A stretch of 64,000 nt of DNA from Nitzschia sp. pyKryTriq1. Taxonomy: Eukaryota > Bacillariophyta > Bacillariophyceae > Bacillariales > Bacillariaceae. The position numbers and the translations under genes are program-made. The stretch is from positions 1,178,001-1,242,000 of the forward strand of contig OY101120.1 in the NCBI GenBank assembly GCA_956465555.1, given 5' to 3'. Position 1 is the first letter of the stretch. Each line of letters opens with the position of its first letter. Positions 3,900 through 17,281 of the stretch are shown here, piece by piece. A model generated the notes under the pieces. The model was not told where the DNA came from, searched no databases, and was given only the letters and a program-made list of their open reading frames with translations.

Positions 3900-4245
3900 G
3901 TAGCTACAAGTACTACTTTACCGGTAGACTGGTAGTAGTACAGTACAGTATTTGTAGAGGGGGTAGAGGTAGGGCCCTACCGGTACTGTACCGGTACCGG
4001 TGTACTTGTACCGGTACCTCTCTGTCGGCCGACCGTACAGTACCAGGTCTACACCCCGACGTGTACAGACGCAGGGTACACAGTACTGGTACCGGTACTG
4101 TACCTAACCTGATAGATACATACTTGTACCGGTACCCGACCCCCGTGGTAGGGTCAGGGATCAATAATTTATTGATCCGTGGGTAGGTTAGACCCCCACA
4201 GACGCTACCCTGTACCTGGTAGGTACAAGTATCAAACTCATGCAA
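3900..4245. repeat. Cluster of overlapping GTACCGGTAC-type palindromes
   Basis: Many overlapping copies of GTAC, GGTACC and TACCGGTA with short A/T-rich spacers. The units are self-complementary, so the block is palindromic at several scales and could fold into many small hairpins. No fixed period is visible. Confidence 0.8.
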
Positions 4246-4589
4246 AACATCAAGAGCCTAGATTTTATGGAACGGCACTGCAGAATCTCGTTCTGACCGA
4301 TCGACAATCTTCTCACAATTTCGACAATTCGACGTATCGCTGGAATCTAGAAGAGTAGAGTAAAAAGCTTTCCCACCCGCCCACACCTTTAAGGGCAAGG
4401 CGAGCACTACTGTACCAAACCAAATTCAAGCAGAATTGGGCTCGGTCGGTCTTAGCACCCAGTTACCTGCCCGTATGTCTGACTTCACCTACCGGTACGG
4501 TGGTACCCCACCGACTGTATGCATGGCGGTGGGGCCCTCCTTTACGGTATGCGTACTGGCGCGTGCTTACTGGCCGAGGCGTAGCTTGG

Positions 4590-4765
4590 GAATCTTGGAT
4601 TCTGAGCGTACCGGTACCAGGTACACAAGGAGGGTACGCTGGCTGTACCTGTGCTTGTACGCCCGTACAGGTGGTACCGGTAGTACCGGTAGTACCGGTA
4701 CAGTACTCAGTACTGCACATTCCGGTAGACCAGGTACCTGGTACCAGGTACCAGGTACTGGCCGA
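4590..4765. repeat. GGTACC/TACCGGTA cluster with a short tandem core
   Basis: Contains a local tandem array of the 9-mer ggtagtacc (about 4672-4700), then ggtacctggtaccaggtacc near 4732-4755. Same motif family as the cluster at 3900-4245. Confidence 0.8.
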
Positions 4766-5796
4766 AGGATGTCGGATGACGGATGACGTGCACCTTGTGA
4801 TGACGCAGCCAGAAGATTGTTTTGCAATCGCATTCGGAAACCAAGAGGTCTCGTTTTTCTCTGCCAGCAGTGCAAGCAACGCATTTTTAAAGTTTCGAAA
4901 GAACATGAAAAGAATGATCCGATCGTTCTCTTGATAAGAGTCAATGACAAACTGATAATTATGCACATGTCCCTTCATTTAACGACTTTGGCAATCGAAT
5001 CGGTTTTTGGCGGCCAGCCGTGTGTCTTGGAATAGTTATTTAGCCACATCGAGACACCCCAAGACCAAAAAATTTACACTGCAACCATTGGTTCTCTCAT
5101 ACGGTACCGGTACAACTACCAGTACTGTAGACTACGGTACCGGTACTGTCGGGTTGCACCAACCGTAGATTTGGAATATTCGCGCGCGCCTGCCACTACT
5201 CACCAGGTCGTGCAAGCGTCTACGGCACTGCGGTATGGAATCATTGAATGACCAAGAATACAATCTGTTGAGACAAATGACAGACATGTGCTACATATAA
5301 TGACGTTCGGAGTATCCACGTCCCCCGCCGAAAATCACGAGCCAAATTGCCCAAAGTATCATAGTGACAACCAGACGAGTCGGTCAAAACGACTGGCTGA
5401 ATGATTATATTCGTGTATTAATATCAAATAAAACTCAAATTAATTGAAGCCAACGGTTAAGGGCACATATCGATTTAACGTAATGGTGGGCGAAAATGCT
5501 GGATGTCGATTTCAAAGCTCGTCGGAGTTGTTCCAAAAAAATTCCTTTGGCCAAGTCCACAAGAACTTTGCAAGTCTATTGGCTGTCCCCTATCCAGACA
5601 GACGGAGAGCCTCATCATCATCACAACACCGAACGAGCCATAACACCGAAGCAACGCATAGCCTCGAACCTCGCACCCCAGAATCAAAGACACAAGTCCC
5701 TCCCTTTGTATTCATACTTCAGGATTTGATTTGGATCCTCTAGACCTTACGTAGTAATCGTATATCATTCAACCGAAAAGGAGAAGAATCTGAAAA

Positions 5797-6781
5797 ATGA
5801 CGCTGAACCGTTCAACCAGTTTGACAACATTGCTACTGCTGTCGTTATCCTTCCTGGCGACTTTGGTTAACGCACAAAACGGACAAGTGTGTCCCCTGTG
5901 TGCTACAGCTGCCGATCTTCCACGCAGGTGGGACATCGCTGTCCCAGGAGATGGACGGACTTGCCGAGACATCTACCTGTACCTTGGAGACATGAGTCCT
6001 AATAATGCTCTATGGTGAGTGCATCGCAGTACTGTGCGAGGCCGTATTTTGAGACTTTTCTTTCGCCAGTTCGTCTGACTGATCCCCAACCCTTCTCCCA
6101 ATCGTTTTTTGTGTCGACAGCCAAGCAACTAAAGACAAGGCTCAAACCATATGCTGTGGTGCCGAGGATCCGAATATTGACTACCCTCCAACGAATCCTC
6201 CAGTCTACACCGGACCGGTTGGAAACGAACCTACTTGTCCCATTTGTGGAACAATGGAGTACCCTGGAATCCCTAATGCTTTCATCGTAGCTCGTTATGT
6301 TGGAGAATACACCTGTGATCAGCTGTATGGACGTGGTCTCAATGGGATGACACCTGACTTCATGTGTGGACCTCTACAAGACTTCGCCGCACCGGTTTGC
6401 GGATGTGGACAGTTTAATCCTAGATGCCGAGAGAACTCGAACAACTGCTGGGGAAACCCCGGCGCTCCCGTGGCATCACCTGTGAGCCGACCTGTTGCGG
6501 CGCCTACTCAAGTGACGTCGCCAACGGTACAGCAACCTGTTTCGTCTCCAGTCAACGTCCAACCAACAATTTTCAATAGGAAGACACCGCCACAGGGAGG
6601 CAAGTACTCAACGAAACTTTCTGATGGTCGTGGAGGTTCCGCTAGTGTTCTTCGTGGAGGAAGAAGAGGGGAAGAAAGTGAACTACCTGATGATTTCGAT
6701 GAAGATCTTCCAGAGACACCCGAGGGCTTGGAATTCGACTTTCGAGTGGTTGAGAAGGACGAACAGGATTCATCACATTAA
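5797..6781 (+). CDS. Secreted Cys-rich protein with two copies of a six-Cys domain
   Basis: Two exons, 5797-6014 and 6121-6781, separated by a 106-nt GT-AG intron (phase 2), give 292 aa. A signal peptide (hydrophobic core LLLLSLSFLATLV, likely cut after VNA) heads the protein. Two repeats follow, each with six Cys. Repeat 1 begins CPLCATAAD and ends ICCG; repeat 2 begins CPICGTMEY and ends VCGCG. Both have exactly 16 residues between Cys 3 and Cys 4 and 10 between Cys 4 and Cys 5. A Pro/Ser/Thr/Val linker (about residues 185-225, likely glycosylated) leads to an acidic C-terminus. The intron falls just before Cys 4 of repeat 1. The same domain recurs in the gene at 15473. I do not recognise a named family; an extracellular or wall-associated role is inferred. 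Confidence 0.8.
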
Positions 6782-8827
6782 ACGTGCGATGGGTTGACTC
6801 GCAACCATTTCCTTTTGCTATCTACTTCTTTCGATCCGCGAGGTTCCGTTCCTCGCTGTATTCCATGGCGTCACGGTGAAAAATAGGCCCCTGCTGGCCA
6901 CCCTTGTAAACTAGGTATCCACATATAAACTCCATTGTACTTTCTGGAACATTCAAGCAGAAATGGTTCATTCGTCCAGAGCAGAAGCTCGTTGAGGAGT
7001 ACCAGTACGGCGAGCGTCTCGGATACAGTAGGATTGAAGAAGCTCCTACAGCCATTTCTGGATACATGATTTGCTTTCCGCGAAAAGTTGGACTGCGGCG
7101 GCGTTCCCCTGAAATTATAGGTGTTCGATTTCCAACTATTTTCATACCAATTCCAAGCACTATGTACTCCTACTAGGGTGACTGGGTACCAAATACAGGA
7201 CGTGGACGTGGGGTCTGAGCTCTCTCAATAAGGTACACATCCACATTGAATGATCCTATCATGTTGTTACTTTGCTAGTACTAGTAGTTTTCGTTACAAC
7301 TACAGTAGAGTACAGGTACATACTTGTACTGCTGCTCTACTAGAGAGCTGATGCCCTATTTCAGAAGCATCGTCGTCCGGGACATGGTAGTACGATTAGT
7401 TCCTGATCGGTTCTTCGTATTCCTCTTCTCTATGAGTTTGTACGTATCATAAACTCCTATTTATTTTAGTCTACAAGCAAATACCATAGCACCTCATCAA
7501 CAAAAAAGCCAAAAGCAACCCGAAGCCGCCGGAAGAGATCTGTCTTGTTGTCCGAGGGCCTGGTCCGAGCTTTGCTTGGGCGCACCAGAGTTTGTGGACT
7601 GGACGGTGGAGGACGCGATCGATCGATCCGTTTTCCACCAACCACACACGCACGGCGCCAGCAGTGTACCTGGTACGTACAGTACGGTACAGTACAACAC
7701 AAGTACTGTACGGTACCGGTTCTGTACAGACCGGTACATTTATTAGAAGATGGTTCTCTGCACACGCCACCACACCCACGCACGGCGACGCCACGGCGAT
7801 GATGATGATTTCGAATTTCGAGCTCTCTCATCTCGCTCAGGGGTCCAAAGCGCACGAAGCTCGAAGCTTCATACCCCTTCTGAGTTCTGAGCTCTTCGCG
7901 CGCTATGGACCCCTGATCTCGCTCGGATCTACCGGTACGAGTACTACATACTGTGCCGGTAGTACCGGGGGTACCTGGTACGGTATCGGAGGGACCTTCT
8001 CCTTCAAAAAAAAAAAAAAACACGTCGACAGTCGACCAGCGGTTAGCAGTGAACGAAAGGGCGCCATTTTTACTGGTCATTTAACCGATAATTTCAACGG
8101 ATAGTTAGTGCGCATACGGTACCAGGAACAGAACGTACCTGGTTCAGTACATGCAGTACCTACCGGTAGAAACAAAAAATAATAATAATGATCCGGGATC
8201 TCGAGATTTTTAGCGCTGCGCGCGCTCACTTTGTAGCGTAGCCGCGTGTTTTGCATATCCAATGGATAGGCCAACATTGAGAATTCTACATATCCGAATA
8301 ATTTTTATGATGTATCCAATCGATAGTGTCTGTCGTGTCTGCGGCGTCTGTTTGTTCTTCTCCTCCCTTTTCGTCCTTTTTCCGTCTGTCATCCCTTTCG
8401 GTTCATTTGGTCGGCTCTCCTTCCCCCTTTTCATCGGTACTCGTAAAATCCGACTGATTACAAAATAACGTGATCGGATGCATACGAACATACATACGGT
8501 CATTATGAAGCTAACAGGGATCAATAAATACGAGGGATGTGCCAAGCGCATAGAAGGCGAAATTCCCTTCGTGGCAGAAAGCAAGCCATCTTCATCACGG
8601 CGCATCACGCACAATTGTTTTCCGTGTTGTTAAATCCCCGTAAAACGCCAAAAGGTGAGGCTGCTCGTCTCGCCCACGCGATAACACGTGTTGTAGTAAC
8701 TACCTTTCCGGCAATGGATCACTAGCACCAAATTAAACAACTGACATTACAAATTGTCTAAGTATGGTTAGGTGGAGTGTGCTGTGCAAAGGTATAAGAA
8801 CATTCAGATCTGTTTAAGATCGTTTCA

Positions 8828-8922
8828 GAGCTCGGCCAATTTTACATAGTGATATCGCGAGGGAGGCCAATTTTACATAGAAAAAATCTCCCACAATATT
8901 ACTATGTAAATTGGCCGAGCTC
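8828..8922. repeat. Imperfect inverted repeat (about 22-nt arms) with an internal direct copy
   Basis: The left arm at 8828-8850 reads gagctcggccaatttt then acatagt. The right arm at 8901-8922 is its reverse complement with one T missing. A third, direct copy of ggccaattttacatag lies at 8865-8880 in the loop. The arrangement suggests a small foldback element or a regulatory hairpin. Confidence 0.75.
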
Positions 8923-9012
8923 TCAATGATCGTAACCAGCTCTGAAGGTTATACTATTACACACGATTCCTCTTACCGTACTTTCACTGTACTAGTACGA
9001 GCCTTCGCCGGG

Positions 9013-9111
9013 CTTTATGGAGTAACTGTTGTATTTACTATCAACTCGTAGTCTACTAGCAGTCAATCTCTCTACTGTACGTTCTTATTCGTTAGAGGTT
9101 ACTCCATAAAG
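9013..9111. repeat. Perfect 14-nt inverted repeat
   Basis: ctttatggagtaac at 9013-9026 and its exact reverse complement gttactccataaag at 9098-9111 enclose 71 nt. It sits about 350 nt upstream of the GYF-domain gene. Confidence 0.75.
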
Positions 9112-9464
9112 TGAGCTTGCGATCCTTTGTACCGATCCGTCAAGCTGTTGTCTTTCCTGTCCGCAGTCATAATGTCTCGTCTCGATGACTCCAGCGGATC
9201 TTTGACTAAGTTGATTCGGCCACGAAGGGAATTTTTCTTTTCACGAGCCATCGCGCGGCTTGGCACATCCCTCGTATTTATTGATCCCTGGAAGCTAAGC
9301 GAAGCGTATCCAAAATTCAGAAACAACAAAAACATCGACAATGGCACAATTATCGTTCGCATCAACAAACCAATCAATAGCATACATATTTCAGGCAATA
9401 CAACCGTCTCTTCAAGCTGTAGATCGTTGTATCTCAAGAAGTCTTCGCTGTTCGCGCTCCAAGA

Positions 9465-10658
9465 ATGCCATCCGTCAAATTTGCTCCATCGGTGGACGAG
9501 GACCGGCCGTCTCAAAAGCGTCGAAGAGACGAGGAAAGCGAATCAGGGGCTGCAGGACGAGGCGATAGTATTTTGATGGATGATGATTCCCCTAAGAAGC
9601 AAAAGAAACTCAGACCAAATGAGGATGAATTGGACGATCTTGACGACTGGAAAGAAGAAGATGACGAGGACGACAAAAATGGCGTGCTGCCATCTGAGAA
9701 GGAGCTACTGGAGGCTAAACGGCAGAGACGTCAAAATCGCAATGCGTTGGATGCTGATGGAAAGACAAAAATTGACGACATGACGAGCCTGGCGGCTGAG
9801 GGTATACAGGTTGAACCCTTTCATATGAAGAATGAAGAGTCGGATGGTACAGGATTCTTTGATGGGGATACGTACGTTTTTCGCAAACACAACGTAGAGG
9901 AGGGAGAGGACGAAGAGCCGGATGCATGGCTTGACCGGCTCCGGGAAGATGAAGAGGAAGGGAAAAAATCACTGTACCAGGCTCCGGTTGCCAAGCCAAA
10001 AACCGCGGAGACGCCCAGCAAAGAGTCGATGGATGATCTGACGAAAGAACAGCTATACAGGAAGATTCTTCCCCTTCTAAGCGAAAAAGAGTCCGTGTCG
10101 CAAGCCTTGATTCGTTATGGCCGCCTGATCAAACCCGCTCGTGGCGCAAAGGGGGTCTCGGCAGATGCGTCCCAATTGGTTGCTCAAAGCTCGGCCAAGG
10201 GATACTTGAATGAACTTACAGGCGCCGCGAATGCATTGTTGCTCAGGGGGGAAGTCGAAATTTACCAAGCTACAAAACCTGATATCGAACGCTTTTTGCC
10301 GACGTCCCAATTCCAAACACCAGCCGGCACAAAACGCCTTATTGAGAAGCAGCCACCTGCGAAATGGGAATACCAAGGGAATCAGGATGGGGTCAACCAC
10401 GGACCCTACACAACGGAGCAAATGCTTGAATGGGTGAAAGCTGGATACTTTGTCGGGGCACAGCGAGTCAAAATACGCACAATACGCGAAGGACAAAAGG
10501 AAGTTTCCACTCAGGAGGACCTATTGGCGGATCTGCTAGATGACGACGATGAAGAAGACAATGGAGATGCTAAGAGCGAGAGAGTACTTGTAAAGGGCGA
10601 ATGGCAGTGGTCGAATGAGGTTGATTTCGGTGCTTATTTACCACTCCCAAACTGCTAA
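9465..10658 (+). CDS. Lin1/CD2BP2-like U5 snRNP protein with GYF domain
   Basis: Component associated with the U5 snRNP (CD2BP2, also U5-52K; yeast Lin1), which binds Pro-rich ligands through its GYF domain and leaves before the active spliceosome forms. Single exon, 397 aa. The N-terminus is charged and matches the family layout: KFAPSVDEDR at the start, KRRRDEESE, a strongly acidic stretch, then TGFFDGDTYVFRK with the acidic EEGEDEEPDAWLDRL block. The GYF domain lies at about residues 298-360, with the W-x-Y...DG...HGPYT...M..W...GYF pattern visible. The ATG at 9465 opens directly into the conserved N-terminal motif; an overlapping frame starting at 9127 is a shadow in the leader. Confidence 0.88.
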   Translation: MPSVKFAPSVDEDRPSQKRRRDEESESGAAGRGDSILMDDDSPKKQKKLRPNEDELDDLDDWKEEDDEDDKNGVLPSEKELLEAKRQRRQNRNALDADGKTKIDDMTSLAAEGIQVEPFHMKNEESDGTGFFDGDTYVFRKHNVEEGEDEEPDAWLDRLREDEEEGKKSLYQAPVAKPKTAETPSKESMDDLTKEQLYRKILPLLSEKESVSQALIRYGRLIKPARGAKGVSADASQLVAQSSAKGYLNELTGAANALLLRGEVEIYQATKPDIERFLPTSQFQTPAGTKRLIEKQPPAKWEYQGNQDGVNHGPYTTEQMLEWVKAGYFVGAQRVKIRTIREGQKEVSTQEDLLADLLDDDDEEDNGDAKSERVLVKGEWQWSNEVDFGAYLPLPNC

Positions 10659-10973
10659 ATCGAACCCATCACCGGAGTATATGGTAGGATTTTAGCTACG
10701 GGCACATGCCATAAAGGCAAGCAATATCATAGGGTTGCGAGAGGAGTGCTACAGGCTGGAAAATAAAAGGCAGCATACCTTCGAATGCCTCCAGAGACAG
10801 CACTACGGCAACGCCTGCGGAAGACATTCACGATCCAACAAGGTACAAACACCAGTTGCAGCAGCGCAACGGGGGTACCGCCTTTCGGATCTCTTGTGAT
10901 GGCGTACCGGTACCGGTAGCGAATAATAAGTTGGTGCGCGGATAAGAATAAATCTCACTGTTGCCGTTCCAAC
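10659..10973. other. Convergent 3' spacer without a gene
   Basis: About 315 bases between the GYF gene and the cyclin. It carries a short taccggtaccggtag motif near 10905-10919 and no coding signal. This is one of the few convergent spacers that contains the motif. Confidence 0.6.
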
Positions 10974-12385
10974 TCATGTGGATGTCACACAAACGGGGGA
11001 AAGATCCATCGGTGCAGAAATGTTGTTCTTTGCTTCATTCTTCTTCGGGGAGTCTGGAGCCTCGTGTAGAGAAGTGCCTTCATCTTCTTGACACTGTGCA
11101 CTCATGCTGTATACATACCACAATCGATGACGAACACCGTCAAGCTTCTTTTGGTCTAGATGCAGCTCAAAGGACTGCTGCAGAAGGTCAATGAAGGAAG
11201 ACTGTCTTGCCTCGATTGCGGTTGAGTCCTCTAAGCCCTCAATGGCGTTGAGTATAGCAGCAGCTGCAACTATAGGCTTTTCCGTCGAGACAAAGTTGTA
11301 GTCGTATAGTGCAAGTTCGGCGAAGAATGTCGCTCTTTGTTGAACACACGAGACGACGTGGGGATCCTCCGAGATGGTCAAAGCCGTGCAGAACGGCTCG
11401 ATGAAACACTGCACTGTGGGAGGGTTGACACGCCACGCCAATGCTTTCAGAATGAGCATTTCCATCTCTACAATATGTCGTTCCTCAAATTCGCCACGAC
11501 TTAGCTCAACAAGATTCAGAAGGGTGATCTTCCTCGTGTTGAATATCTTCGTAGCCATGTACAAGCTGGTCATGGCTGCTAGCTTGAATGCCGTTCTATC
11601 GCAGTTGCACCGGTCGACAAAACGGTCCAGATACGAAAAGGCAACCGCTACAACCTCTCTTCCAGTCTTGAAATGATCGCAAACGCGATACGTCCATTCA
11701 CCTGAGGAGTCGCAGAAGCAACAGGGGGGGGAAGTATGAGTGCAAAGTCCAATGAGAGATCTACCGTATAAGTCATGCAGGCAAGCATATACAGTTGAGA
11801 GAGTACACCAGGAAACACCAGGCAAAAGAAGAGTCTGGTTCGAGGTGGTCAGCAATGACAAGAGCAGGGGGCGAAATCGCTGGTGTGATCCCAATTCATG
11901 ATTGCTAGCTGGGGTGGTCGATTCTTTCTACCCATCAGTAGTCCTCGGTGGCGGAGAGCGTTTTCGTTCTTTCAGGGTGCCCTCGATCAGCTACTTTTTC
12001 TTTCCCTTTCCACGCTCGTTCATTCCACCACTCATCCCATATATTCGTTATTCCTCTATTGCTACTGTGGCCCCTACAACGATCAGAGTTCAAGGTCGAG
12101 GACCCCTGAGAAGTACTCACACATTTTCTCACGACACACCGCATCCACCGAATCCTCAGCCATCAACGTTGGGCAGTCGTCTTCATCATCGATTTGCTGG
12201 GGCTTTGCCGAACCATTTCTCGCTGAGCGGCGCGAAAGATAGTCGGTACATTTGTAGCAAGAGTCATCTTGCGACGCCATCACTTGAACCTTCTCAACCA
12301 GATCCATTGATGTGGTTGGAGATTCTACGGAACAATTGCCAAGATTCTTCATTTTCAAGCCTAAAACAGGAGGGCCAGAGATCAT
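10974..12385 (-). CDS. Cyclin (cyclin N-terminal box; diatom-expanded type)
   Basis: Regulatory subunit of a cyclin-dependent kinase. Two exons on the minus strand, 12385-12121 and 11701-10974, with a 419-nt intron; splicing gives CREKMCEWTYRVCDHF in frame (phase 1), matching the M-x-x-W-x-x-x-V/I-x-D/H core at the start of the cyclin box. About 330 aa. The first exon carries SCYKCTDYLSR upstream of the box, a layout I associate with diatom cyclins (from memory). The cyclin fold continues through AVAFSYLDRF, LAAMTSLYMATKIF and VEMEMLILKALAWRVNPPT. The contiguous minus-strand frame from 11894 reads into the intron and gives a false N-terminus. The start codon is uncertain: 12385, or a later Met such as that of MASQDDSCY. 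Confidence 0.82.
11702..12120 (-). other. Long intron of the cyclin gene
   Basis: Donor T|GTGAGT at 12120 and acceptor CCTCAG at 11702 on the minus strand. At 419 nt it is several times longer than the other introns here. A pyrimidine-rich tract with a G-run on the opposite strand lies near the acceptor. Confidence 0.75.
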
Positions 12386-13177
12386 GGTTGACGCAGCAGA
12401 AATAGAAACTACCAGCTACACAGTCCTTGGAAAGTAAAGTAAGTGCGAAGCTACCTCGAACTTTGTAGACAACCAAAACGATTATTTCCTTCCGAGTATT
12501 GAATGACAACAACATCGCCATTGGCAGTGCAAATATGGATGGCGCCTTCTTATCTTGCTACCGGTAGCAATCGTGCCCACATAGAGAATGGTCTCCTCTA
12601 TACCGACACGTATATGTTCATATTGACTCGCGATATTGGCATCGAATCAAAATACCAGCAGTGAAGTTCGATCGTGATCCTCAAATTCAAATAGATACGT
12701 AAATCAAACTTGAAATATATAATATCGCGATTGAAATGGGATCTCTGCCATTTTTATTTAGAGACAGGCGATAAGTTGCATCCGACTTTTCCGGGATTTA
12801 CTTTCCCGCCGTGTTGCCGAGAGCTGCACGAAGTACACTACCGGTACGATGGGGCGGGGAGGGTGAAAAGCTACCGGTACCAGGTACCGGTACGAGTACA
12901 GTACTACTCTCTAGCTAGTAGAGTAGAATGGAAAGAACAGACGCGAGACGCGAGACGCGAGACCCACCAGATTTTATCATAACCCTCCCCTTTTGTTTGT
13001 ATATCGGCATTCATCTGTCATCTGGAGTCGTCTGCAGTCGTCTGCAGTCTGCAGGTTGAAAAGATTCGACACTCGACATGTACCGTACAGATTGAGGAGT
13101 GAGGAAAGTGAAGTTTAATTTCTTCTTGTAGCTTGGGACTGGGATATTTCCACCCGGAATTTTGGAATTTGTGAAAA
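12386..13177. promoter_or_regulatory. Divergent promoter region, cyclin / Maf
   Basis: About 790 bases between two divergently transcribed genes. Contains a GTACCGGTAC-type cluster at 12835-12905, three tandem copies of acgcgag at 12941-12961, and gtcgtctgca repeats at 13027-13054. No gene seen. The promoter assignment is by position only. Confidence 0.5.
12835..12905. repeat. GTACCGGTAC-type palindrome cluster in a divergent promoter
   Basis: Includes ctaccggtaccaggtaccgg and neighbouring GTAC units. Same motif family as at 3900-4245. Confidence 0.75.
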
Positions 13178-14127
13178 GTGGGCTTGATGATTTATAGTCC
13201 AGCGAGATCCTTGAGAATCGTACTTGCACTAACTTCAATACGCGTCGGAGTCGACGGCTTTGTGTTGGGTAATACTGGGATCCGAAAGAATATCTCTGCA
13301 GGCCACAATCTTCAAGTAATGTCGGATGCCGCTGACGGCAGTGATCCCTTGCTGCTTGTTTCCCTACTGGAAAAGATCGGGTTGGATGATTCCGCCAAGG
13401 TTCGCTTAGTGTTGGCAAGTCAATCGCCACGGAGAAGAGAAATATTGGATATGATGATGCTCAAGGGAAAATACCTCGTTGAAACCCCTCCTTTGGATGA
13501 GTCAAAACTCCAGCGAGAACTGACAGACAAAGGCATCACTTCTGCTGAGTACACGTGCAAACTTGCCGAGGCTAAAGCATTGGCTCTTGCTCAGTTCCAT
13601 CTGGACGAGAAAAAGAAGGAAGGAAATATCATCCCGACCTTTTACTTGGGGAGCGACACAGTTGTCGAGCTTGATGAAGCCATTCTCGAAAAACCGAAAG
13701 ACCCATCTCATGCAAAGAAAATGCTCGCTTTGATGAGTGGTCGGCAGCACCATGTACACACGGGAGTTGCTGTATACAGGCTCCAAGGGAAGGACATTTC
13801 ACTAGTTTCGTCCTTCACCGACACGGCCACTGTCACTTTTTGCAACCTGAGCCCAGAGACTATAGATGCCTACGTTGCGACAGGAGAACCGCTAGACAAG
13901 GCCGGTACGTTTACAGCAAAGATTCCACCTCATACCGACGATCGTCGCCTTTTACTTTTGGAGCTCACACATTGAAATCCAATACATGAGTAGGATCCTA
14001 TGGCATACAGGGTGTAGGCGGACAACTTGTTACTAGTTTGACTGGAGACTTCTTCACTGTAATGGGACTACCGATGCACCGGACGAGCACTCTGCTCGCA
14101 AAGGCAATTTCCAAAGAACTAGGATAA
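13178..14127 (+). CDS. Maf-like nucleoside triphosphate pyrophosphatase
   Basis: House-cleaning enzyme of the Maf/HAM1-like fold that hydrolyses non-canonical or modified nucleoside triphosphates. Two exons, 13178-13904 and 13994-14127 (89-nt intron, phase 1), 286 aa. Family motifs are all visible: LASQSPRRREIL (phosphate-binding loop), LGSDTVVELDEAILEKP (the catalytic Asp), KMLALMSGRQHHVHTGV, and, across the intron, EPLDKAGSYGIQGVGG then FFTVMGLP. The uninterrupted frame to 13975 runs into the intron and loses the conserved GIQG motif. About 65 residues precede the catalytic domain, starting with a hydrophobic segment, so organelle or secretory routing is possible but unresolved. It is convergent with the thioredoxin-like gene, 105 bp apart. 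Confidence 0.92.
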
Positions 14128-14232
14128 TCGATTGAAAAAACACATGCGAGACATTTCCCTTGATGCGGTTTATAAATATAGCCCTTAGCACGTGACCCTC
14201 ATCACATAAGAGGTGGCTCTTTTTACTCTCCA

Positions 14233-14744
14233 CTAGGCTTTGCAGAATTGTCCGAATTTGGCTACAATCTCTAAATAATGTGTCTCTCCGAACAATCGAG
14301 CAACAGGGTTTCCGTCTTGGAAAAGAATCATGGAAGGAGACTAAGCAGAAAGAATCATAATCTGAGCAAATCTGACTCTGGTGTTTCCGTACGATTCCAT
14401 ATGGCACTTGGGCAGTGCAAATTTGGACTTACCTTGGTATCACAATCCCATTTCTTGGCAAGCTCGGGGTAGTCTTGTTGTTTGATGCTGACCAAAGTCG
14501 CCCTATCCTTTAGCAGTGCCTTTGCCCGAAAAATATCATCCTTGATGACAGCTTCCGTATTAGCGTCGTAGAAGTTGATGAGGACAGGTTTGTCGACAGG
14601 AAACTTGGCAAGGATCTCATCCATCGAGTTATATTTGGCGAGCAGATTGGTGGGTCCTCGGGTGCTTGCCGGGACGACGGTAGGCACAAAACCCTGAACC
14701 GAAGCGACTACGGCCAAAAGAGCTGAGACAAGAGAAAATTTCAT
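14233..14744 (-). CDS. Small plastid-routed thioredoxin-fold protein lacking the CxxC motif
   Basis: Two minus-strand exons, 14744-14433 and 14340-14233, with a 92-nt intron (phase 0), give 139 aa. The N-terminus has a signal peptide core and an SVQGFVP cleavage motif, as in plastid proteins of algae with complex plastids. The thioredoxin fold is supported by DKPVLINFYDA (beta strand before the active site), DCDTK|SPSMILFQDG (cis-Pro region across the intron) and a C-terminal helix. Aligning FYDANTEAV with the usual F-W-A-x-W-C-G-P-C puts Thr63 and Val66 in place of the two catalytic Cys, so disulfide exchange is unlikely. Isolated Cys remain (WDCD and near the C-terminus). Biological role unknown. 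Confidence 0.8.
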
Positions 14745-14942
14745 ATTGCTGGTAAAGGTGTGGGAAAATGGAACTTAAGTCAATAATGCGATCGTTGATG
14801 GATATTGGATATCCTTCGGCCCTCGCTCCTCGTCGCACCGCCTCCCATGCATGATCATGAAGCAATGAGCAAGCAAAGAGATCGGAAAAGAAATCTCGAG
14901 AAGCGAGAAGAGAAGATGCGCCACGTGGATCCCTACTAAGCC

Positions 14943-15436
14943 ATGAGCGCCAACAGTCAGTCAGCTGTCCCGTCGAATGCCAATAAGCTTGCCGGAGGAA
15001 GGACAGACTGGATGCCCATAAACGATTTACGACTGTTGAGGCGTGCTGCGGAAGGCAAAAATGTGTCGATGATTCGTTATGATCTTGCCAAAAATAGACT
15101 CTCTTACGGTCGTTGCTCCAAAATATTTAGGCTGGTTTGGACCCGGCCGGCGCTCGGATGCAGTTCAGGATGCACGATCCGCGTCTTCCGCCAAACTCGC
15201 TGAGCGCTAAAATCATCGATCATCTTCTCCCCTTGCTTTTTCGAATTTTCACTTGGATAGACGAAACAGCACACAGCTACATAGAGACGACGGAGTACCG
15301 TACGGATCTGAAAGCATCACAAATACTCTACCGGTATCAATTGTATCGTAGGAATATCCTTGCTCCGCAGGAGTACATTGAAAGGATAAACAAGCGACAA
15401 TCGATTATCCGCCCTGCACTGCGTACTCCGGACTAG
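14943..15436 (+). CDS. Unrecognised small gene, structure uncertain
   Basis: An ATG ORF (14943-15203) overlaps a second open frame (15131-15436). A 68-nt intron from 15063 to 15130 (weak donor GTGTCG, acceptor ATTTAG) would join them into about 141 aa running EGKN|AGLDPAGARMQ. The joined product is basic and hydrophilic with a helical-looking middle (HLLPLLFRIFTWIDE) and an Arg-rich end (LYRRNILAPQEYIERINKRQ). I recognise no family. The divergent spacing to the thioredoxin-like gene (about 200 bp) and the tight spacing to the next gene make a short real gene plausible. The donor is poor, so a chance pair of ORFs cannot be excluded. Confidence 0.35.
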
Positions 15437-15472
15437 TTTCTGCTACTAGCTAGCAACGAGATACGAAAAGCC

Positions 15473-17281
15473 ATGTTTAGGTTTCGAGATGGAAAGTGGG
15501 CAGCGAGCCTCCTTTTCTGGTCACTCCTCGCTCAGCACCGAGCCCTAGCGCAAGATGTCTTTCAGTGTCCTCTTTGCGGCGAAGACAAGGAGCTCACAAA
15601 CCCAGACGGCGTCGTTACAGTTCCTCAAAACGGAGACTTTCCCTGTGCTACGCTCGTGGGTTTGGCCGAACAGGGTAACATCGATGCGGCCACTTGCGCG
15701 TTTTTACAGCCCTTTGTGCTATCGCCGTGTGGGTGCAGGGACCCAGTGCCCGTCAACGGGACAGCGTCGCCCACCGAGTTTCCCACCATGGCCCCATCAT
15801 TTGGTCCGCCTCCGTCCTGCTATACCGACCTGAACAACATTCTTCAACGAGAATCGTCCTTCACGCAGCAAGAGATCCAGACCGGAAGGACCTACATTCT
15901 TTGCCCTGATACGGTGTACTTTATGGGAAGATTAACTCCTACCGGGGGATACGAAGATGGCTTCGATGGGATCATTCCAAGACCCAATGTCCACTATCAA
16001 TGCGGAGAAAGCGGGTCCTCGTCAAACAACTGCAGACTTCTCGACGGGACGTTTCCTATCTTCAGCTTTGGAGGGGATGCTGCACACACCAATGTGACAT
16101 TCCAAGGATTGACCATTGAATCGGCTGCTGGAGGCGGAGTGCTGGCGGCGATGCCGGGAGACTTGAACTTTGTAGACTGTATTTTCAAGGTGAGCACAAA
16201 AATTCATCGAACTGCGGCAACTTTCTGCTTGCGAAACTTTGTCTCAAACATAAGTTGCTGGATCCTATTTTGAAGAATCATGAAAACATTGGTCCGGTAC
16301 ATATTCTTTTCGATAGCCCTTCTGCTCGTAGATCATTGCGCAACAGTGGGGTGCAGAACGACGCTGATTTGCCTGGCTTTGTCAAGTCTTATACCGAGGG
16401 GGGGGTTCGCGGTTTGGCTGACAGGCTGGCCCAGGAGGAGGAGCAGGATTCGAATACACAAGAGGACGATCGTCAGCTTCAGGGATCTCCTGATCTTAAT
16501 TCATTGACACTCAGTTTCAGGCAGTGTATTTTTGAAGTAAGTTGAAATCGTAGCCTTCCCTCGTCAAACAAATTGGATGTGTGTGTGTGTGTATGTATCA
16601 TTCTCACTCTTCTTTTTTGACAGGGAAACAAGCTGGTGGGAGCCTTTGCGAACTCGGGCATGGTTACTAGCGTAACTCCCGAAACCAATCTCATTTTTGA
16701 GGACGTTGTCTTTCGCAACAACGACTATGGAGACGTCACACTGAAGGTAAGCTCAAGTCTGATATTATGGAAATATTCAATTCGCTATTACTGATGCTTA
16801 CTTCTTTCTTTTTTTCTTTCTTTCGCAGAATTACACATCCGCAATTCTTAGTAGAGGCCCGCTGACGTTGAGGAATACATGCTTCGTTGATAATACATTT
16901 ATTCGGGATGCTTCTGTAATCGCCTTCGGAGACTTGGATTCCAGCAACAATTATGTGAGTCCCTCAGACGATAAGCTTCTGTCTTGCCCCTTCGTTGCAA
17001 CTTTCGCGGCCGAAGCTGAGTTTGAGTTAGGGACAGGCTTTATTTGCAGTGACTCCGACTTGGAGTCGTGTCAAGCGGATATCCCATCTACTTCTCCTCC
17101 CCAACCGACACCAGGGGATCAGCCCACTCGAATCCCTGTTCCGCGAGCAACGTTAGCCCCGGTTGTGCCTCCGATGAACAGCCCGACCAAAGCTCCCGGT
17201 TCAGCAGGTTCCACTTCATTTTCTTTGTGTGCTACCTACGTGGCTGTCATTGCAGGACTTGGCTTTGTTCTCGTTCTGTGA
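15473..17281 (+). CDS. Secreted beta-helix protein with N-terminal six-Cys domain and hydrophobic tail
   Basis: Four exons, 15473-16189, 16276-16536, 16624-16746 and 16829-17281, all joined in phase 0, give 517 aa. After a signal peptide (ending near HRALAQ) comes one copy of the same six-Cys domain as in the gene at 5797: CPLCGEDKE to PCGC, again with 16 and 10 residues between Cys 3-4 and 4-5. A Pro-rich spacer leads to a region resembling right-handed beta-helix (pectin-lyase-like) proteins, with repeated strand-turn units such as NVTFQGLTIES, LNFVDCIFK, LSFRQCIFE and LIFEDVVFRNN. A Ser/Thr/Pro stalk and a C-terminal hydrophobic stretch (VAVIAGLGFVLVL) suggest GPI or membrane anchoring at the cell surface. 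The exact function is unknown; exon 2's acceptor (GAAG at 16275) is the least certain junction. Confidence 0.75.
16579..16592 (+). repeat. (GT)n microsatellite in an intron
   Basis: Seven GT units inside intron 2 of the beta-helix gene. Confidence 0.8.

Follow-up and report, generated by a model that had tools for sequence, protein, structure and literature searches.

A six-cysteine domain family in putative surface proteins of the diatom Nitzschia sp. pyKryTriq1

The stretch analysed here (the window; 64,000 nucleotides of contig OY101120.1, forward strand positions 1,178,001 to 1,242,000, assembly GCA_956465555.1) originates from the diatom Nitzschia sp. pyKryTriq1 and carries two genes, A (5797-6781) and B (15473 to about 17281), which together encode three copies of a small domain with six cysteines (Table 1). 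Removal of the intron at 6015-6120 yields an uninterrupted protein from gene A, and copy 1, joined from 5890-6014 and 6121-6157, then has the spacing C-x2-C-x20-C-x16-C-x10-CC (2, 20, 16, 10 and 0 residues). The initial annotation had placed three copies at these positions with these spacings, and all three were recovered, copy 1 after splicing. The C8 relative of gene A shares 67% identity with it over a region that runs from the end of copy 1 through the linker and copy 2. By eye, this relative has a GT-AG intron that splits the same cysteine codon (TG/T), and its joined spacing is again 16 and 10. Consequently, the count of 16 and 10 residues in copy 1 is independently supported.

Table 1. 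Features of the window (numbered from its first letter) and proteins of the genome that contain the domain
Feature	Location	Strand	Description and basis
Gene A, exon 1	5797..6014	+	hydrophobic signal-like N-terminus (hydropathy), initial portion of copy 1 (from 5890)
Gene A, GT-AG intron	6015..6120	+	interrupts the fourth-cysteine codon of copy 1 (TG/C)
Gene A, exon 2	6121..6781	+	remainder of copy 1 (to 6157), copy 2, a stretch rich in Pro/Ser/Thr, and an acidic C-terminus that lacks a hydrophobic tail
Domain copy 2	6236..6406	+	C-x2-C-x22-C-x16-C-x10-CGC; single open frame, plain pattern search
Gene B, exon 1	15473..16189	+	signal-like N-terminus, copy 3, Pro/Ser/Thr linker, onset of beta-helix-like region; end is splice donor by reading
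Domain copy 3	15566..15736	+	C-x2-C-x22-C-x16-C-x10-CGC; single open frame, plain pattern search
Gene B, tentative exons 2-4	about 16357-16536, 16624-16746, 16829-17281 (span 16357..17281)	+	remaining beta-helix-like region, Pro-rich stretch, hydrophobic GPI-like C-terminal tail (hydropathy); exons placed by eye
Signal-like start, one or two copies, Pro/Ser/Thr-rich stretch, GPI-like tail present or absent	gene A, C8:2221, C6:2649, C12:1565		frames read
Copies followed by beta-helix-like region	gene B (one), C4:745 (four), C5:2576 (one, behind another cysteine-rich region)		frames read
One copy preceding two fasciclin stretches	C6:2722		frames read
Hydrophilic start, membrane anchor, then copies	C8:1989 (three), C8:1926 (two), C14:190 (eight)		frames read
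Cysteine-rich region, two to seven copies, GPI-like tail	C2:3476, C1:2334, C1:2342, C1:2843, C1:2849		extreme starts of C1:2334 and C1:2342 outside the sequence seen
One copy and C-terminal anchor	C3:3611, C1:4741		frames read
One copy	C13		ends outside the assessment
11-mer GGTACCGGTAC	3988-5146, 10904, 12883, 17997, 35384, 42728, 42933, 49211	both	count against shuffles

The possibility that the shared spacing is a coincidence among unrelated cysteine-rich proteins was examined both in the window and in the genome to which it belongs (40.65 Mb in 20 contigs; all genome match counts are lower bounds). Three copies alone are a small sample, which leaves room for such a coincidence. However, the spacing pattern, which was defined after the copies were already known, occurred in none of 300 windows simulated with a first-order Markov model, as compared with two unspliced matches in the real sequence. 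With copy 3 as the query, at least 22 genome matches were obtained at E ≤ 10, the query itself included, and at least 12 of these had E < 0.001; a further copy used in the same manner gave at least 21 matches, again including itself, and queries with additional copies enlarged the set. A single shuffle of copy 3 with its cysteines held in place returned no genome match at E ≤ 10, and another shuffle, in which the cysteine positions were not kept, likewise returned none. Admittedly, 10 of the 22 matches to copy 3 have E > 0.001, reaching 0.174. Nevertheless, together with the intron in the same cysteine codon of the C8 relative, these data make chance spacing extremely improbable, and it was rejected on the basis of the simulations and the cysteine-fixed shuffle.

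The contrast between 22 matches for copy 3 and none for its cysteine-fixed shuffle also shows that conservation extends beyond the cysteines, contrary to the initial view that little else is conserved. The commonest non-cysteine residues of single columns are P (35 of 49 copies), T (34), G (31), A (30), G (30), L (29) and I (29), and a typical copy reads, roughly, CxICGxGxxVTNPDxVVxIPGQxxRTCxELxxxAxxGxIxxxQCxLLQxxxxxxCGC.

Summed over all searches, the genome contains at least 51 copies at 19 loci, with one to eight copies per gene. This total is composed of 44 single-frame copies found with a pattern at chosen loci, 4 found with a profile of those, copy 1 of gene A, copy 1 of the C8 relative and one copy on C13. 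That the genome is a diatom's is borne out by the silicon-transporter family PF03842, found at 8 places in it, all above the curated cut-off. Spacing was counted on 49 complete copies (48 distinct sequences), excluding the two that are cut by introns. Six cysteines are present in all 49; the domain is about 57 residues long, with a range of 48 to 65 among these copies. The second gap ranges from 18 to 30 residues; the third measures 16 residues in 35 copies and 17 in 11, with one copy at 14 and two at 11; and the fourth is 10 residues in 47, the other two copies having 9 and 11. Thus, the proposal of exactly 16 and exactly 10 residues holds for the three window copies, whereas genome-wide 16 is the usual rather than the invariant value. 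The tightness of these distributions is partly a product of selection, since the pattern behind the 44 copies accepted only gaps of 12-36, 12-18 and 8-12 residues and allowed no additional cysteine within three of the gaps. The profile search of the same loci, which set no gap limits, contributed both copies having a third gap of 11. The net charge is negative in 45 of the 49 copies and positive in 1, with a mean of -5.3.

The tree of domain copies is built from short sequences and was used for evident tandem repeats alone. At C1:2333904-2343108 and C1:2843447-2850029 there are adjoining pairs of paralogues with 3 to 7 copies per gene, one pair being arranged in tandem and the other inverted. 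No difference was found between C3:3611878 and C1:4741207 across the 85 residues compared; the near-identical stretches around them (near C3:3611935, L065, and C1:4741264, L066) are short as retrieved, perhaps because they are contig ends, and each encodes a protein that has a single copy of the domain and an anchor at its C-terminus. This pair is possibly the product of a recent subtelomeric duplication.

The initial annotation could not name the domain, and no credible match to it was found in Pfam, NCBIfam or PDB sequences. Twenty-two copies scanned singly against Pfam-A (24736 models) gave nothing above the curated cut-off (best E 0.023), and no family was hit by two or more of the copies; the window genes, with gene B represented by its first exon only, likewise gave nothing above the cut-off (best E 0.056). 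The same 22 copies had no NCBIfam match above the curated cut-off (best E 0.063). Against PDB sequences, a 22-copy profile reached at best E 0.25 among the 5 matches listed (cut-off E ≤ 0.001), and a 5-copy profile gave nothing at E ≤ 10. No relatives were found in viral contigs or in a bacterial and archaeal genome collection, where short peptide patterns reach close relatives only, or by tblastn among phages, all of these being collections without diatoms, so that the negative does not bear on other eukaryotes; PHROGs gave weak single-member matches only (best E 0.0046). Literature searches found no published description of the domain among the top papers listed, which is weak evidence of novelty as most subscription papers lie outside their coverage. 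Similar sequences are presumably present among the hypothetical proteins of other diatoms, which we treat as a lead and not as a test. Judged from sequence, the domain family is real and has no entry in the libraries that were searched, namely Pfam, NCBIfam and PDB sequences. Its general kind, a small disulfide-rich extracellular module, is familiar: modules of this type without known function are common in protist secreted proteins.

Among the sub-threshold Pfam matches to single copies or to gene A are Zn_ribbon_IS1595 (E 0.056), Zn_ribbon_Brz (E 0.023) and FeS (E 0.066), the latter two for one copy each. These matches would fit an alternative in which the initial CxxC and the final CxC or CC form one metal site, with a structural disulfide between the third and fourth cysteines, for the capture of iron, zinc or copper at the cell surface. 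The starting CxxC is often CxICG, as in rubredoxin or a zinc knuckle, and CxxCG is generally reminiscent of metal knuckles. CXC and CXXC motifs also occur in certain other proteins of diatoms, which have been discussed as iron-linked (PMC7972479). However, the zinc-ribbon and FeS matches lie below threshold and unrelated models score equally well (e.g. RASSF8-10_RA, E 0.028). Moreover, 29 of the 49 copies end in CC rather than CxC (20 copies), and none of the His, Asp or Glu columns exceeds 45%. Secreted zinc-ribbon-like sites are also unusual. On this evidence a metal-binding module is unlikely.

Turning to the proteins that host the domain, all 11 chosen N-terminal starts contain a hydrophobic stretch (13-residue mean hydropathy 1.27 to 2.55), and three additional hosts have a strongly hydrophobic, anchor-like stretch (2.97 to 3.58) after a hydrophilic N-terminal part. 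At the true frame ends (n = 14), eight hydrophobic GPI-like tails were seen by hydropathy together with one anchor-like tail, that of the C3/C1 pair. These signal-like starts or membrane anchors agree with the earlier assignment of the hosts as secreted. Use of the module in different architectures, also proposed initially, was supported: it was found in beta-helix-like, fasciclin, mucin-like, GPI-like and membrane-anchored hosts. In the gene at C6:2722950, two fasciclin (FAS1, PF02469) stretches match with E 4.3e-65; FAS1 is an adhesion-type surface module and is here a chain partner of one copy, not a relative of the domain. A CBM96-like match in C8:1989 (E 0.003) is below the cut-off. For gene B, the GPI-like tail of the initial annotation was seen again by hydropathy alone, whereas its match to Pfam Beta_helix (E 0.11, with a query protein whose second exon junction is doubtfully placed) remained below the cut-off; the repeat pattern nevertheless makes a beta-helix likely.

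Five hosts (L071, L075, L078, L005 and L021) carry a separate N-terminal cysteine-rich region with a motif like ADVGILSCGxGxxC...GGxC. This region is apparently a second unnamed module; the one host tried against Pfam gave nothing credible for it.

The occurrence of the domain together with Pro/Ser/Thr-rich stretches in several hosts could also be read as the signature of a cross-linking module, in which disulfides would form from one chain to another, as they do in gel-forming mucins, so that hosts rich in Pro/Thr/Ser would assemble into a polymeric coat or mucilage. Diatoms are known to have a mucin-like surface protein, CaFAP1 (PMC11420354). Conversely, the even number of six cysteines per copy, a count that is partly selected, favours pairing within the domain, and many hosts look membrane-anchored or GPI-like by hydropathy rather than like free polymers. 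Inter-chain cross-linking therefore appears improbable. CaFAP1 of Craspedostauros australis reportedly consists of alternating Cys-rich and Pro-Thr/Ser-rich regions, and it may or may not contain the domain.

The reading that we favour is that of a small, acidic, disulfide-stabilised extracellular domain that recurs as a module from which cell-surface proteins are built, which we regard as somewhat the better bet on the sequences at hand. Three disulfides may be proposed because the six cysteines form an even set and the hosts look secretory, and these would hold a small alpha/beta fold composed of a beta hairpin and two helices, as suggested by low-confidence models. In two AlphaFold runs, the alignment of each consisting of window copies 2 and 3 only, the best models have the same order of elements: strands at 21-24 and 28-31, a helix at 32-40 and a second helix from 46 to 60 or 61. 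Helix one starts at the third cysteine, and the fourth cysteine sits close to where helix two begins. A bond between the third and fourth cysteines would probably tie the starts of both helices; it is placed there because the gap between these two cysteines varies while that between the fourth and fifth hardly does. A Foldseek search of the first model (mean predicted local distance difference test, pLDDT, 68.4) against the PDB gave a best E of 2.3, a result rendered uninformative by the poor model.

As for function, the acidic face would bind wall or matrix material, be it Ca2+, polyamine-bearing silica proteins or polysaccharide, with tandem copies contributing avidity. An anchor, or else a partner domain, would keep what is bound at the membrane or within the secreted matrix. 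Tandem use and the fasciclin partner fit such a surface binding or adhesion module, a role that the initial annotation had also suggested, and the domain probably binds wall or matrix material. Several observations weigh against this interpretation. Acidity is common among secreted diatom proteins. The confidence of the structural models is low, with best mean pLDDT values of 68.4 and 58.9 and the remaining four models of each run at 38.0 to 48.4; a strand at 12-15 appears in the first model only, even though both rest on the identical two sequences. Five of the 14 frame ends have neither a GPI-like nor an anchor-like tail, although some of these frames may extend into another exon. Finally, the signal-like and GPI-like calls are hydropathy assignments and not predictor output, made from start codons of our own choosing. 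A more specific version, in which a family with a distinct fold, restricted to diatoms or closely related stramenopiles, docks fasciclin adhesins, carbohydrate-binding-like proteins and mucin-like coats onto the silica wall or organic coat, is put forward tentatively, as a possibility that we hold to be doubtful at present.

Several known diatom systems come closest to the surface building block favoured here. The frustulin ACR domain is described, in the excerpted text of PMC4557024, as an acidic, cysteine-rich, repeated domain of about 50 residues in diatom wall glycoproteins, and the same excerpt states that the ACR domains of frustulins bind Ca2+. Acidity is a shared trait, given that 45 of the 49 copies are net negative. 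The ACR motif is CxGDCD, which occurs in none of the 49 copies; the two are set apart by this motif, and a distant kinship is possible. For the pleuralin PSCD module a solved structure reportedly exists, which was not among the PDB sequence matches listed. PSCD is likewise a repeated module with cysteine and aspartate in diatom wall proteins that have a Pro-rich region, but its length of about 90 residues, as given in the part of the source consulted (PMC4557024), differs from the 48 to 65 residues found here. The SiMat7-like family similarly is a diatom family defined by conserved cysteines in proteins with a signal peptide and a membrane anchor; however, it has eight conserved cysteines as compared with the six of the present domain, a comparison made by description in the excerpt of PMC5501833.

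The family is well supported but uncharacterised. If the domain binds wall or matrix material, its profile would mark candidate surface proteins, as at the 19 loci here with one fasciclin protein among them, and the domain itself would provide a cell-surface targeting tag.

Separately from the two genes, the window contains 16 occurrences of the 11-mer GGTACCGGTAC, counted on both strands, with some pairs overlapping as a palindrome, as compared with 0 expected from 100 shuffles. The 11-mer seems to be a dispersed short repeat.

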